IMG/VR virus record: IMGVR_UViG_3300029922_000086
Coordinates: 1-55,327 of that record
DNA length: 55,327 bases
Source of the DNA: a virus
Direction: 5' to 3' (one strand)
Part shown: one piece after another, positions 29,359-49,856 of the stretch
How the letters are laid out: each line of letters opens with the position of its first letter
Numbering within the stretch: the first letter of the stretch is position 1
Position numbers and translations under genes: made by a program
Notes under the pieces: generated by a model
What the model saw: only the letters and a program-made list of their open reading frames with translations
The model's database searches: none
Told to the model about the DNA's origin: nothing

Positions 29359-29622
29359 ATGCAATCTGCACTCAAAGCTTGTTATGAAACATTACCATTT
29401 CCAAAATTATCCTTGGATTTTAAAAAGTTTGAGAAATCAAAATTAGAAAAATTATATGACACAGAAGGAAAACCATATTTTGATTATAAAACTGATTGGA
29501 AAGGGAGGGATTATGAAAATAATCGTTGGATGTCTGTTGAGAGGATGCAAGAAGCCCGTGAGGCTATTCGTGACTTTGAGAAAATGATGTACGAAAAAGA
29601 GTTATTCTTTTTTTCAAAATAA
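29359..29622 (+). CDS. Small Lys/Glu-rich protein
   Basis: 87 aa from ATG 29359 (GTG 29356 is also in frame), with GGGAGATG upstream. Sequence MQSALKACYETLPFPKLSLD then YDTEGKPYFDYKTDWKG and ERMQEAREAIRDFEKMMYEK. No recognised domain. Ends over a minus-strand intrinsic terminator, so transcription in this direction meets the ncRNA unit. Function unknown. Confidence 0.6.
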   Translation: MQSALKACYETLPFPKLSLDFKKFEKSKLEKLYDTEGKPYFDYKTDWKGRDYENNRWMSVERMQEAREAIRDFEKMMYEKELFFFSK

Positions 29623-29625
29623 AAA

Positions 29626-29648
29626 AGCCCCAGGCAAAACGTGGGGCT
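29626..29648 (-). terminator. Intrinsic terminator of the large ncRNA
   Basis: Reading on the minus strand: AGCCCCA-loop CGTTTTGCC-TGGGGCT followed by TTTTTTATTTT. The stem is 7 bp, perfect, GC-rich; on the plus strand no U-run follows, so it points leftward only. It is the natural 3' end of the RNA unit and overlaps the end of the small gene on the plus strand. Confidence 0.75.
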
Positions 29649-29690
29649 ATCTATCTGCACACTCGGTACAGTAGCGAATAAAAGTTATTA

Positions 29691-29763
29691 CTTTTGAAAA
29701 AGGGAATTGAACCCTAAGTCTCGTCGATACTATCCACGCGTTCGCCTCGAACCGTTTCAAAAA
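29691..29763 (-). ncRNA. 3' tRNA-like cloverleaf within the large ncRNA
   Basis: TTTTGAAA and TTTCAAAA close a stem; inside are GTTCG-AGG-CGAAC, a CGTGG-ATAGTAT-CGACG arm, and AGGG-TTCAATT-CCCT with a canonical 7-base T-loop. It is 73 nt. It differs from a normal tRNA: one G-G mismatch in the anticodon-like arm, a 5-base or shorter D-loop, a T-T mismatch at the T-stem base, and no CCA encoded. Might be a degenerate or mimic tRNA. Confidence 0.4.
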
Positions 29764-30123
29764 CTATTAAAATCTCTGTCTTCCCAGAGTGCCCATGGCT
29801 ATTGTCAATATCTCTTTCGAGTCTGTCGATCGCAGCTAACACTACCATATCGCGGATAATTTCACCTTCTAAGTTTTACATCATTGATAATTATCAAGGG
29901 AGGATGGCCCTGTCTTTCCAGGTGTCACATCTTTTTTTTTATTTGCCAGGAATGAGCCGGCAGAAGCTACAGTGCGGAGTCATCGCTTAGCTCTTTACTC
30001 GTCCGCAGTGGGTTCTTAACCAATCATCTCGCTAAATAGTTTAGGCCGTGAATTGAGAGTTATGGGCCAAGGTCTTCTATCCCCAATACTGGAGCTTTTT
30101 ACGAGTATCCATCCATCTCGTTC

Positions 30124-30280
30124 GTTTGATTATCCAGAAGGATTCGAACCTTCGTGGAATTCCCGTTCTCACTCCAGCAAGAGTATTTGGAATTCTTATA
30201 GTTGCTGTTCAACTTTAAACCGGGTCTCACTCCAGACTCCTCCCTCACATTGCTGTGGGCTCAGTCATGGATAATCAAAC
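30124..30280 (-). ncRNA. 5' tRNA-like domain of the large ncRNA
   Basis: The 5' end pairs with a downstream segment through 13 perfect bp (30268-30280 with 30124-30136). A T-arm stacks directly on that stem: GAAGG-TTCGAAT-CCTTC at 30137-30153, with the full T-loop consensus. Between them, in place of D and anticodon arms, lie about 115 bases including a hairpin with GCAA tetraloop (about 30242-30262), an AGTTG-AACAG-CAACT hairpin and GAATTCC/GGAATTC pairing. It is too long for a normal tRNA. Confidence 0.5.
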
Positions 30281-30286
30281 TGTTGA

Positions 30287-30315
30287 AGTTTAGTGAGAAT
30301 AGAACAGGAAGTCAA
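30287..30315 (-). promoter_or_regulatory. Promoter of the large ncRNA
   Basis: Minus-strand TTGACT (30315-30310), a 17-base spacer, and TAAACT (30292-30287). The start expected about 7 bases downstream falls at G 30280, which is exactly the first base of the 13-bp closing stem. That agreement between promoter and fold is the best support for the unit. Confidence 0.6.
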
Positions 30316-30907: not shown

Positions 30908-31405
30908 ATGTACAACCGCTTAAAAGAATTGGTAATTATTTCATCATTATTATTGGTTAGTTGCGGGCAAGTGCCACACGACATTGACCCCTATTTCATT
31001 CCCCTGATAAAAAGATTTGCGCTTGATGCACAGATGGCAGGACTCACTACAGGCGGTTTTGCAGAAATCACGCAAATCACATTCGATTCAAACATGCCCC
31101 CCGGGCGCGAGGGCACATGCGCCTACAATCACCCATATATTATTTCTCCAAAGATATTCAGTGATTTTTATAAAACAATTCGTATCAATCCGGACGTCAA
31201 AGTCCCGCGCGCGAACCAAGACTATGCCTATCTTGTCTTTCTTCATGAACTTGGACATTGTGCGTATCATTTAGCGCACACATCGAATCCCACGGACATC
31301 ATGTATCCGACTCTCGACGAGCAATCGTTGCAAATCGCAGAAGCAAACTATTTCGAACAAGCCGCAGAGAGTGAAAATTCTTGGTTTTCCACCGACCCTC
31401 CTTAA
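30908..31405 (+). CDS. Lipoprotein metzincin-like zinc protease
   Basis: 165 aa from ATG 30908 with GGGAGAG upstream. Residues 1-20 are a type II signal peptide with lipobox LLVSC; the mature protein would be anchored to a membrane facing outside the cytoplasm. A zinc motif HELGHCAYHLAH lies near residues 113-124 (HExxHxxxxxH), and DIMYP follows, matching a metzincin Met-turn. Phage-encoded outer-membrane-type lipoprotein proteases of this form are unusual. Possible roles: superinfection exclusion or surface processing. The gene stands alone before the origin region. Confidence 0.75.
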   Translation: MYNRLKELVIISSLLLVSCGQVPHDIDPYFIPLIKRFALDAQMAGLTTGGFAEITQITFDSNMPPGREGTCAYNHPYIISPKIFSDFYKTIRINPDVKVPRANQDYAYLVFLHELGHCAYHLAHTSNPTDIMYPTLDEQSLQIAEANYFEQAAESENSWFSTDPP

Positions 31406-32088
31406 AAAAGCAAAAAAAGCAAACGAAAGCAAACTCCTGCTTTTAAAGTTTGCGCGTGAAATAAACAAACAATCTCCTCAGAAGCAAAAAAGCAAGAAAT
31501 CTCAATTTCCCCATCTCACAGGCCTTTTTCCCCCGCACGCAAAAAAAAACGCAAGAACGCAAGCCACCGCAAGTGCCTGCGGCTAAAGATATCCGCATAT
31601 TTACAGGACAAAAACCACTTAGCCGCAAAAACGCAAAAAATTCCTATAAATGAATAATAAAAAAGCCAGAGAAAGGATTGAGAAAATGACAAATGGTTTA
31701 TGACTTTTATGTATTTATATATATATATATATATATATTATAAAAATATTATATATAGGGATGCGTTTTTGCTCCACGCAGAAATTGATATCTACATGAT
31801 TTTTTGCGTTTTTGCGTTTAATTCATTATAATCCTTATTTAACGCGACATAATTTGTCCGCAAGCGTTTGCGTGCCCTTGCGTTTTTGCGTTTTTTTTGC
31901 GATTTCCTAAGAAAAAACCTTGCGGCTACTTTTTTGCGTTCTAAAATTTGCATCATTTTTGTGCTTATTTGATATAAAAACGTAAAGAGGATTTCACATT
32001 TCCCAATAATGGAAATCAATATAAAAAAACAATGGAATTCTAAAATAAACGCAAAACTCTTCTCTCCCAAGCTCTCACCTCCTAAGCA
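31406..32088. other. Candidate replication origin
   Basis: No gene is seen in this 680-base stretch. Left part (31400-31640) carries many GCAAAAA/CGCAAAAA repeats in one direction, also ACGCAAGAACGCAAGCC. Right part (31799-31945) carries TTTTTGCGTTTTTGCG in the opposite direction. Between them is a TA-repeat and A+T-rich run (about 31711-31757). Facing iterons around an A+T-rich element look like an origin, and the replication genes start immediately downstream. TAGCCGCAA occurs on both sides as a mirrored pair. Confidence 0.6.
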
Positions 32089-43088: not shown

Positions 43089-43280
43089 ATGATACGTTTT
43101 GAAGACATTTTAAAAATGATAAAAACTTGCTCTATGAAGAAAAGTTTCAAGTTTCGGTCAAAAAATCAGGATGGCTATTACATTTACAAAAATGGAAAAG
43201 TCTTCGATTATTTTGACAAACCTGTGCAAAAAATAAGCTTTTACAACATTATTTTTGAGGAATGGGAGGTCGTTGAATGA
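43089..43280 (+). CDS. Short degenerate Tad2-like protein
   Basis: 63 aa. RFEDILKMIKT at the start and FEEWEVVE at the end echo the F-e-al--l--G and DDWE-- ends of the Tad2-like (DUF2829) fold, but without the conserved arginine-tryptophan middle. Next to the better match at 43277, which it overlaps by ATGA. Likely a paralogue, degraded or specialised. Confidence 0.5.
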   Translation: MIRFEDILKMIKTCSMKKSFKFRSKNQDGYYIYKNGKVFDYFDKPVQKISFYNIIFEEWEVVE

Positions 43281-43675
43281 AATTCGAAGAAATTTTGCCT
43301 CAATTGCGAGAAGGACGGCGATTTAAAAGAAGCTGTTGGGATGATGATATTTACATAACATATACTGAAAATATTTTATGCAGCAACAAAGAAGGAATTT
43401 TACTTCAATATAGTTTATTAGATGAAGAGATTTTTTGTGACGACTGGCAACTCCATCGATTTGAAAATTCGACTACTCTCAGAAAATTTGAATTAAATGA
43501 GATATTTCTCGGCGAAGAACCTGAAAATAGAATTAGATTTGGAGATTCAATTGATCCTATTGAAATTGCATTTGGTCATACATTAAGTTTATTTTGCCTT
43601 AGTCGCAAAGATGTTTCGCAATATCAAAAAATTTCAAAATGGAAATTAATCCTGGAGGAACTTCCAAATGAATGA
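43277..43675 (+). CDS. Tad2-like (anti-Thoeris) N-domain fused to a C-module
   Basis: 132 aa. Residues 1-65: MKFEEILPQLREGRRFKRSC then W--D-YI... ending FCDDWQLHRF, the pattern of DUF2829/Thoeris anti-defence 2-like proteins. Residues 66-132: RKFELNEIFLGEEPE ... KISKWKLILEEL, a second module whose relative occurs C-terminally in the gene at 49079. So two modules are fused here but separate in the right-hand cluster. Role in countering Thoeris signalling is inferred from family, not shown. Confidence 0.6.
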   Translation: MKFEEILPQLREGRRFKRSCWDDDIYITYTENILCSNKEGILLQYSLLDEEIFCDDWQLHRFENSTTLRKFELNEIFLGEEPENRIRFGDSIDPIEIAFGHTLSLFCLSRKDVSQYQKISKWKLILEELPNE

Positions 43676-47935: not shown

Positions 47936-48196
47936 ATGGAAATGACAATCTTTGTATTAATTCAATCAGACCATAAAGGCCAACAAGATATTTCATTTCA
48001 TGAGAAATATGAAGATGCTTTACATAGTGCAGAAGTTTTCCCATGGGGTAATAGTTATCGCATTGAAAAACATCAGTTAGGAAGCCACACTTTAATAGAA
48101 ACAATAAATATGGACGGTCATAAATCAGGACCATCACGTCCTGCAAAAGTCGGTAGGCCTCATACGTACGGGCTTTGGATAGATGAGGAGAAATAA
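47936..48196 (+). CDS. Small protein, unknown
   Basis: 86 aa: MEMTIFVLIQSDHKGQQDIS, then FHEKYEDALHSAEVFPWGNS, ending THGL-type with YGLWIDEEK. Overlaps the RNA ligase start by 1 base. No family seen. Confidence 0.55.
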   Translation: MEMTIFVLIQSDHKGQQDISFHEKYEDALHSAEVFPWGNSYRIEKHQLGSHTLIETINMDGHKSGPSRPAKVGRPHTYGLWIDEEK

Positions 48197-49089
48197 TGAA
48201 AATAAATAGCTATACCAGTTTGTACAATATTGGCCATAGGCAATTAGAGAAGCTCTTTGAGGGTGAAGTTCTCATAGAAGAGAAAATAGACGGTTCTCAG
48301 CTATCTTTTGGACTCATAGAGGGGCAACTTCAAGTTCGTTCTAAAGGTGGTCCTTTGAATATTGAACAGCCTGAGAAAATGTTTGCCAAAGCTATCGAAG
48401 TGATTAAGGCGCTCCCGCTTCAAGAAGGATTAATTTACAGAGGTGAATATCTCAAAAGCCCGCGACACAATTCTTTGTGCTACGACCGAGTGCCAAAAAA
48501 TCACATCATGATTTTCGATATTTCCAACGAAGAGGGAAAATATCTGAACAATATGCAGAAGAAAAGAGAAGCTGAACGCTTGGGTCTCGAGTGCGTCCGT
48601 GTCTTTAGCAAAGGAGTTTTCAATTTCTCAGCTCAAGAATTACAAGAATTCTTAGAAAAAGAATCTATCTTGGGGGGGCAGAAAATTGAAGGAATTGTAA
48701 TCAAAAATTACAATCAATTTAACGACGAAAAGAAGATTTTAGTTGGAAAACTTGTTTCAGACAGCTTTCGAGAAGTTCACAAAAAGAATTTTAAAGAAGA
48801 GAATAAGTCTAATACTGACATAATTCAATTAATTGCTGAACAATATAAAACTCCTGCGCGCTGGCAAAAAGGGATTATTCATCTGCAAGAGAAAGGTATA
48901 TTGACCAATACTCCTAAAGATATTGGCTTATTGTTTAAGGAAATTAATGAGGATATTTTGAAGGAATGCAAAGAAGAAATACTGCAACAATTTTTTGAAT
49001 GGGCATGGCCTAAAATGTTTAAAATTATTATGAAAGGATTTCCTGAGTGGTATAAAGAAAAATTGGAGGGTTTGAAAAATGATAATTGA
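48196..49089 (+). CDS. ATP-dependent RNA ligase
   Basis: 297 aa, SD GAGGAG upstream. Nucleotidyltransferase motif I: EVLIEEKIDGSQLSF with Lys about residue 30 (KxDG); motif III around LIYRGEYLK; motif IV KIEGIVIKNY; motif V KILVGKLVS. Size fits Rnl-type ligases. It seals RNA, for instance cleaved host tRNA. No polynucleotide kinase gene was recognised in the window, so its partner may be host-encoded or absent. Confidence 0.8.
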   Translation: MKINSYTSLYNIGHRQLEKLFEGEVLIEEKIDGSQLSFGLIEGQLQVRSKGGPLNIEQPEKMFAKAIEVIKALPLQEGLIYRGEYLKSPRHNSLCYDRVPKNHIMIFDISNEEGKYLNNMQKKREAERLGLECVRVFSKGVFNFSAQELQEFLEKESILGGQKIEGIVIKNYNQFNDEKKILVGKLVSDSFREVHKKNFKEENKSNTDIIQLIAEQYKTPARWQKGIIHLQEKGILTNTPKDIGLLFKEINEDILKECKEEILQQFFEWAWPKMFKIIMKGFPEWYKEKLEGLKNDN

Positions 49090-49501
49090 TAAATTTGGAA
49101 TATATAAAGCAAGAAATGGTGAACATTATGAAGTAGTTTACTTATCAAAGAAGGATAAAAAATATTCTATCATTGCTGTAAATCTAGAAAGTAACTATGA
49201 ATATGCATTTACTAAAAATGGGAATTATGGTCCCAATCATGACCATCCTTTGGATTTAATCGAATACATTGGCCCAGAATTACCAAAAGACCCACGTAAA
49301 TTTGAATTTGAAGCTTATTTGGGAGAGCACGAAGATGAACATGCTCAGATATATTATTCCTTAGAAAATCAAGTAGGGCATTTAACTTCCCCTTTATACA
49401 CTGAAGATGGGATTAAAAAAATGAAATCGATGTCTATAGGTGACTGGCCAAAATATTCAAAATGGAGGGTCGTTATGGAGGAAATTTTAGATGAAGTTTG
49501 A
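49079..49501 (+). CDS. Two-part protein sharing a C-module with the 43277 gene
   Basis: 140 aa: N-terminal beta module (MIIDKFGIYKARNGEHYEVV); C-terminal DPRKFEFEAYLGEHEDEHAQ ... YSKWRVVMEEI matches the second half of the 43277 gene. Start overlaps the ligase gene, and its end overlaps the next gene by 11 bases. The domain swap between clusters is unusual. Confidence 0.6.
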   Translation: MIIDKFGIYKARNGEHYEVVYLSKKDKKYSIIAVNLESNYEYAFTKNGNYGPNHDHPLDLIEYIGPELPKDPRKFEFEAYLGEHEDEHAQIYYSLENQVGHLTSPLYTEDGIKKMKSMSIGDWPKYSKWRVVMEEILDEV

Positions 49502-49856
49502 AGACGCTTTACCCCTTCTCAGGGAATGTAAAAGGATTCGTAGAAGATTTTGGGATAAAGAAACTTATATAGAAATTGTTGAAGAGAAAATTGCTGTTCA
49601 CGTGCCTCATCATCGTTTTAATCCTGGTGAATGGGTGGGCGAAAGGGCCGACCTTCTTTCAGACGATTGGGAAGTATTTGAAGAAGTAAAGAAGAAAGTT
49701 AAAAAGTATTTAGTACTTTATATTGGTACTTCCTACGGCGGAACATGTTTTGCAACTAATTTATATTATAAGTCAAAAGAAGATTTCAAAAAGATACACC
49801 CAGATCTTATTTTTATACAACTAATTGAAGACTCGGAAAAGGAATTTGAGGAATGA
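49491..49856 (+). CDS. Tad2-like (anti-Thoeris) protein
   Basis: 121 aa. MKFEDALPLLRECKRIRRRF, W--ETYI and a LLSDDWEVFE close to residue 60 are the pattern of DUF2829/Tad2-like proteins. Then a C-terminal unit: KKYLVLYIGTSYGGTCFATN. Second of the three related genes. The family is known to sequester signalling nucleotides of Thoeris; this protein's activity is not shown. Confidence 0.65.
   Translation: MKFEDALPLLRECKRIRRRFWDKETYIEIVEEKIAVHVPHHRFNPGEWVGERADLLSDDWEVFEEVKKKVKKYLVLYIGTSYGGTCFATNLYYKSKEDFKKIHPDLIFIQLIEDSEKEFEE

Follow-up and report, generated by a model that had tools for sequence, protein, structure and literature searches.

In our judgement, an RNA gene is likely to be present on the minus strand of the phage contig analysed here, the IMG/VR virus record IMGVR_UViG_3300029922_000086 (55,327 bases, referred to below as the window). 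A non-coding, self-terminated minus-strand transcript carrying tRNA-like modules is well supported by the sequence features. The best explanation appears to be an orphan non-coding RNA of the phage that contains two tRNA-like modules and acts as a tRNA mimic (probability about 0.4), the modules being somewhat more readily taken for mimics than for relics. The proposed unit and its elements are the following:

29620-30280, minus strand: proposed non-coding RNA transcript of about 661 nt, delimited by a promoter and a terminator of its own, the lack of a coding signal and a shift in GC and purine content
30287-30315, minus strand: putative promoter TTGACT-17-TAAACT (9/12 consensus matches), expected start at 30280
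30124-30280, minus strand: 5' tRNA-like domain of 157 nt with a perfect 13-bp closing helix, defined by minimum free energy, z score against shuffles and helix probability
30137-30153, minus strand: T-arm GAAGG-UUCGAAU-CCUUC, whose 3' strand passes straight into that of the closing helix
29763-30123, minus strand: middle segment of 361 nt, not demonstrably structured (z score against shuffles, composition, no coding signal)
29691-29762, minus strand: degenerate tRNA-like element (tRNA-Thr with anticodon AGU according to ARAGORN), detected by ARAGORN and the Rfam tRNA model
29619-29647, minus strand: putative intrinsic terminator GCCCCACGUUUUGCCUGGGGC followed by U6, detected by the stem-plus-T-run scan and the fold of the 3' segment
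30752-30779, minus strand: alternative upstream promoter TTGACA-16-TATAAT (12/12), the sole perfect one in the window

The window encodes a terminase operon, a portal, a major head protein, baseplate proteins, replication genes, an RNA ligase and an endolysin, and the phage is therefore probably contractile-tailed. Its terminase and portal are about 35% identical to those of the nearest relatives found, which are L024, a phage from IMG/VR, and prophage-like loci found in metagenome bins of Neisseriaceae/Burkholderiales. Since the nearest terminase and portal relatives are located in these bins, the host is probably a betaproteobacterium of the Neisseriaceae/Burkholderiales group. About 1.3 kb with no coding signal separates the end of the terminase operon (29622, plus strand) from a small plus-strand gene (about 30908-31405), and the minus strand of this gap holds the promoter, the 13-bp inverted repeat, the tRNA-like unit recognized by ARAGORN and the terminator. 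The small gene (30908-31405) encodes a secreted-looking protein with a lipobox-like start and an HELGH motif, which matched matrixin metallopeptidases weakly. The absence of a protein from the RNA unit, already suggested in the initial annotation, was confirmed by codon usage: the ORFs of the unit scored −0.29 to −0.03, compared with 0.10-0.34 for real genes. A coding-region reading was rejected on this basis, including the 44-residue ORF 29848-29714 (−0.03). The unit (GC 0.44, purine 0.55) is also distinct from the upstream intergenic DNA (GC 0.32, purine 0.45), and in composition its middle segment (GC 0.44, purine 0.57) goes with the rest of the unit and not with the upstream DNA.

The 13-bp stem, which had been supposed to close the whole RNA, was found to enclose only its first 157 nt (30280-30268 paired with 30136-30124). 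The domain closed in this way has a minimum free energy of −52.7 kcal/mol and a z score of −4.2 to −4.3, none of the 200 shuffled sequences being equally stable, and the pairing probability of the closing helix is 0.83. The 5' domain has the geometry of a tRNA, as no gap separates the T-arm from the 3' strand of the stem, just as none separates the T-arm from the acceptor stem in tRNA. When the RNA was shuffled 8000 times with its dinucleotide content preserved, no shuffle had a T-arm with an abutting stem of at least 12 bp; relaxing the requirement to a 7-bp stem gave 3 of 8000. With the 3' element recognized by both ARAGORN and the Rfam tRNA model, the tRNA-like ends claimed previously are real and even stronger than stated. 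The predicted arms inside the stem, the strands of which are 131 nt apart, are not tRNA arms: a GNRA-type hairpin takes the position of the D-arm and an anticodon arm is not recognisable. The repeated CTGGAGTGAGA motif of the 5' domain was considered as a family signature and rejected, as it is present elsewhere only by chance or in tRNAs.

The 3' element (29762-29691) scored 28.1 bits with the Rfam tRNA model, just under the cut-off of 29 (E = 0.0014 over all families), and this significant similarity identifies it as a tRNA-derived element. It does not qualify as a functional tRNA, the score being below the Rfam cut-off and the cloverleaf not intact: there is a G-G mismatch in the anticodon stem, the D-loop is very short, the first acceptor pair is U-A and CCA is missing. 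According to the established identity rules of threonine tRNAs, it is not expected to be a normal threonine acceptor. The element is best called a degenerate tRNA. A pairing of about 13 bp was also predicted between its D-arm/anticodon side (29747-29734) and the 5' strand and loop of the terminator (29644-29632, minus strand). Because of this pairing, the tRNA-like fold together with the terminator on the one hand and the antiterminator-like pairing on the other would be mutually exclusive.

Both tRNA-like units could be relics, which is a point against the mimic and the core of its main competitor. A small phage tRNA operon may have degenerated here, leaving a transcript without a role of its own; 29762-29691 would then be a pseudo-tRNA, and 30280-30124 would derive from a tRNA gene that acquired insertions and pairing of its leader with its trailer. 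We consider such a decaying cluster a real possibility, though one that falls well short of even odds. The low score of the 3' element (28.1 bits) and the middle segment devoid of detectable structure are in agreement with it, and so is the T-arm core in the 3' part of the 5' domain, which is identical over 20-21 nt to the 3' ends of phage tRNA-Arg genes. With a relaxed threshold, ARAGORN also reads the 5' domain as an intron-containing tRNA, but this call is unspecific since the opposite strand is called as well. Moreover, other contigs contain intact phage tRNAs with acceptor stems extended to 19 bp. These are tRNA genes (Asn, Pro) in the phage tRNA arrays of L136 (8124-8233) and L142 (443-540 and 691-800), in which all 19 base pairs are perfect and the extensions arise by leader-trailer pairing. 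Like the 5' domain, L136 8124-8233 and L142 691-800 have a T-arm directly next to a helix that far exceeds 7 bp; however, the L136 and L142 genes are complete tRNAs with an anticodon arm, whereas the window domain has 131 nt between its strands and no recognisable anticodon arm. A relic would also be expected to lose a perfect 13-bp stem and a perfect T-arm early, the predicted fold of the 5' domain contains neither a tRNA-like D-arm nor an anticodon arm, and the promoter, the stem and the terminator are in register. If true, the decaying tRNA cluster would be of minor interest. A 157-nt tRNA-like element was also observed in the GC-rich phage contig L010 (1939-1783, minus strand); its acceptor stem has 9 bp and its D- and T-arms are good, but the place of the anticodon arm is taken by some 100 nt of different structure, and Rfam gave no match.

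The register of the promoter with the stem was confirmed: the seventh base after the −10 element is 30280, which is the first base of the 13-bp stem. Promoter sites of the 9/12 grade are common in this AT-rich sequence (76 on the minus strand of the 55-kb window), and the chance that one of them lands so precisely at the stem was estimated from the local site density at about 1-2%. The claimed terminator also stood up to analysis. The sequence GCCCCACGTTTTGCCTGGGGC-TTTTTT is located at 29647-29627, the segment 29690-29619 folds with a z score of −3.3, and this is the only minus-strand site in the 55 kb which passed the stem-plus-T-run scan. The initial annotation omitted a consensus-perfect promoter at 30779-30752 (minus strand), which is located about 470 nt upstream of the unit and reads toward it.

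Since the sole consensus-perfect promoter is situated there on the same strand, the transcript may be about 1.1 kb long. The unit would then lie at the distal end of a regulatory RNA or leader, within which the tRNA-like hairpin would be an internal element for processing or stability. We regard this as quite unlikely. It is favoured by the 12/12 promoter and by the upstream intergenic sequence 30652-30641, which is perfectly complementary over 12 nt to 30204-30193 in the 5' domain (minus strand) and could compete with the domain fold in a longer transcript. However, a short terminator-like hairpin with T8 (30687-30675, minus strand) intervenes about 65 nt past this promoter and before the RNA unit, and the upstream part is unstructured (z = +0.4), AT-rich and free of a coding signal. 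The promoter 30779-30752 and the hairpin 30687-30675 together could give rise to a small RNA some 70 nt long, or to an attenuated leader for the RNA unit. The weakness of the 9/12 promoter next to a perfect one upstream also argues against the tRNA mimic as delimited here.

The unit had been described as a large structured RNA with many local hairpins. This description is supported for the 157-nt 5' domain and for the 3' end but not for the 361-nt middle, which gave a z score of +0.21 against shuffles and a mean of +0.6 in sliding windows. The hairpins between the tRNA-like modules are thus not above chance and, as the middle is no more stable than shuffled sequence, they are no evidence of an ornate RNA; a middle not structured beyond chance is also a point against the tRNA mimic. 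The middle may nevertheless have long-range or tertiary structure. The full-length unit folded with a z score of −2.5, two of the 200 shuffles being as stable.

The proposed identity with ROOL, GOLLD, tmRNA or OLE was not borne out. Searched with the unit, Rfam gave no match to any of them at its gathering thresholds, and none when E values up to 10 were allowed; the only matches in this looser search were the sub-threshold tRNA and chance matches to terminators. The GOLLD covariance model did not match at either setting, nor did the ROOL model RF03087 in the looser search. A second search, for ROOL alone, returned nothing either, but none of its 14 control genomes was positive, so the Rfam search is the one to rely on. 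A tmRNA was rejected, as ARAGORN called none even at the relaxed threshold and there was no Rfam match. A very divergent member or a functional analogue of the GOLLD/ROOL-type ornate RNAs, forming one folding unit and maybe an RNA cage, would share with them a similar size, the phage-borne and non-coding character and, as reported for GOLLD, a pseudo-tRNA inside, and the z score of the full-length fold is in line with it. Such an RNA is nevertheless very unlikely here, given the absence of any Rfam match to either family at E up to 10 and a middle segment no more stable than shuffles.

GOLLD is a giant RNA of phages and prophages that sometimes has a tRNA or a pseudo-tRNA embedded in it, the pseudo-tRNA being documented in PMC6582537. 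The proposed RNA is similar to GOLLD, as described in PMC12286853 and PMC6582537, in being a large phage non-coding RNA with an internal pseudo-tRNA. In contrast to GOLLD, it has no covariance-model match, carries a tRNA-like unit at the very 5' end, is located outside any tRNA island and has a middle that is not demonstrably structured. It is similar to ROOL in length and in being phage-borne and non-coding, but it does not match the ROOL model, and tRNA-like modules are not among the features described for ROOL in the extracts consulted. Phages carry abundant large non-coding RNAs, and ICP1 makes an abundant non-coding transcript of about 800 nt (PMC7567579); the unit is of a similar size and likewise found in a phage without a tRNA array. 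Unlike the ICP1 RNA, the proposed RNA has no DNA similarity to any phage record. In tmRNA and the bacterial Y RNA (YrlA), a tRNA-like domain is joined to a non-tRNA body. The proposed RNA has the same arrangement but matches no Rfam or ARAGORN tmRNA model, and no conserved family motif was found in it.

The search for homologues, also called for in the initial annotation, found none, whether among cultured phages and plasmids, by limited pattern scans of IMG/VR or in about 800 genomes of the host group; this counts against the tRNA mimic. Comparing the unit by blastn with cultured phages and plasmids at E up to 10 gave only T-arms of tRNAs and chance matches. The IMG/VR scans (the repeated motif; the motif with the T-loop; the D-arm and T-loop of the second element), which used exact patterns and would miss diverged homologues, returned only an identical contig, tRNAs and coding sequence. 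The sole other copy found is in IMGVR_UViG_3300030044_000748, which is identical up to its contig end at 30252. The RNA is absent from the family-level relatives detected with terminase and portal profiles (L024 and L167-L171), the approximately 800 host-order and phylum genomes yielded a single chance match of 25 nt, located within a coding frame, and a covariance model built from the 5' domain as its single sequence detected nothing but weak matches and tRNAs whose acceptor stems are long.

It is highly improbable that the region is a DNA feature and not an RNA gene, either a phage attachment site that includes a host tRNA gene's 3' end or a chance sequence. The relative L024 does have the same T-arm sequence near both contig ends, and one copy is part of an intact tRNA-Met gene, which is what integration at that gene would lead one to expect. 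However, no integrase was recognized among the window proteins scanned, the 26-nt core with up to 2 mismatches was absent from all 300 host-order genomes, CCA is missing, and an attP site needs no matching 5' stem or promoter.

In the tRNA-mimic explanation, for which transcription, stability, binding partners and function are what we infer, an RNA of about 660 nt would be transcribed from 30280 to about 29620, convergently with the terminase operon. Its first 157 nt would form a tRNA-like cap in which the 13-bp helix buries the 5' end and the T-arm stacks on the 3' strand of the helix, and a second, degenerate tRNA unit would be placed before the terminator. The tRNA-like domain would presumably escape maturation into a tRNA, because its acceptor-like stem is 6 bp longer, CCA is lacking and there is no tRNA-like D-arm. 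The acceptor extension may discourage RNase P, the binding of The RNA ligase of the phage fits an RNA-level conflict but proves nothing.

A further-reaching claim, that the RNA represents a new class of phage non-coding RNAs which have tRNA mimics at both ends, act on the host tRNA machinery and resist tRNA maturation by their extended stem, seems rather unlikely. Such RNAs might serve, for example, as decoys for tRNA-cutting defences or for tRNA-modifying or tRNA-binding proteins. Phages make abundant large RNAs with mostly unknown roles, and phage tRNAs are now linked to the evasion of tRNA-cutting defences. An RNA that combined the two, having its own promoter and terminator and a tRNA-like 5' domain that cannot be matured, would be a directly testable tRNA mimic.

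Several other features were observed in the window. The RNA ligase gene (48196-49089, plus strand) belongs to PF09414 and phrog_548, and a role in the repair of tRNA or other RNA is possible. The Tad2-like (Thoeris anti-defence) Pfam domain was found in two proteins (49491-49856 and 43277-43675, both plus strand), clearly in one and at the cut-off in the other. The non-coding region 31400-31900 contains many short TTTTTGCG / CGCAAAAA repeats in both orientations, which are possibly the iterons of a replication origin.
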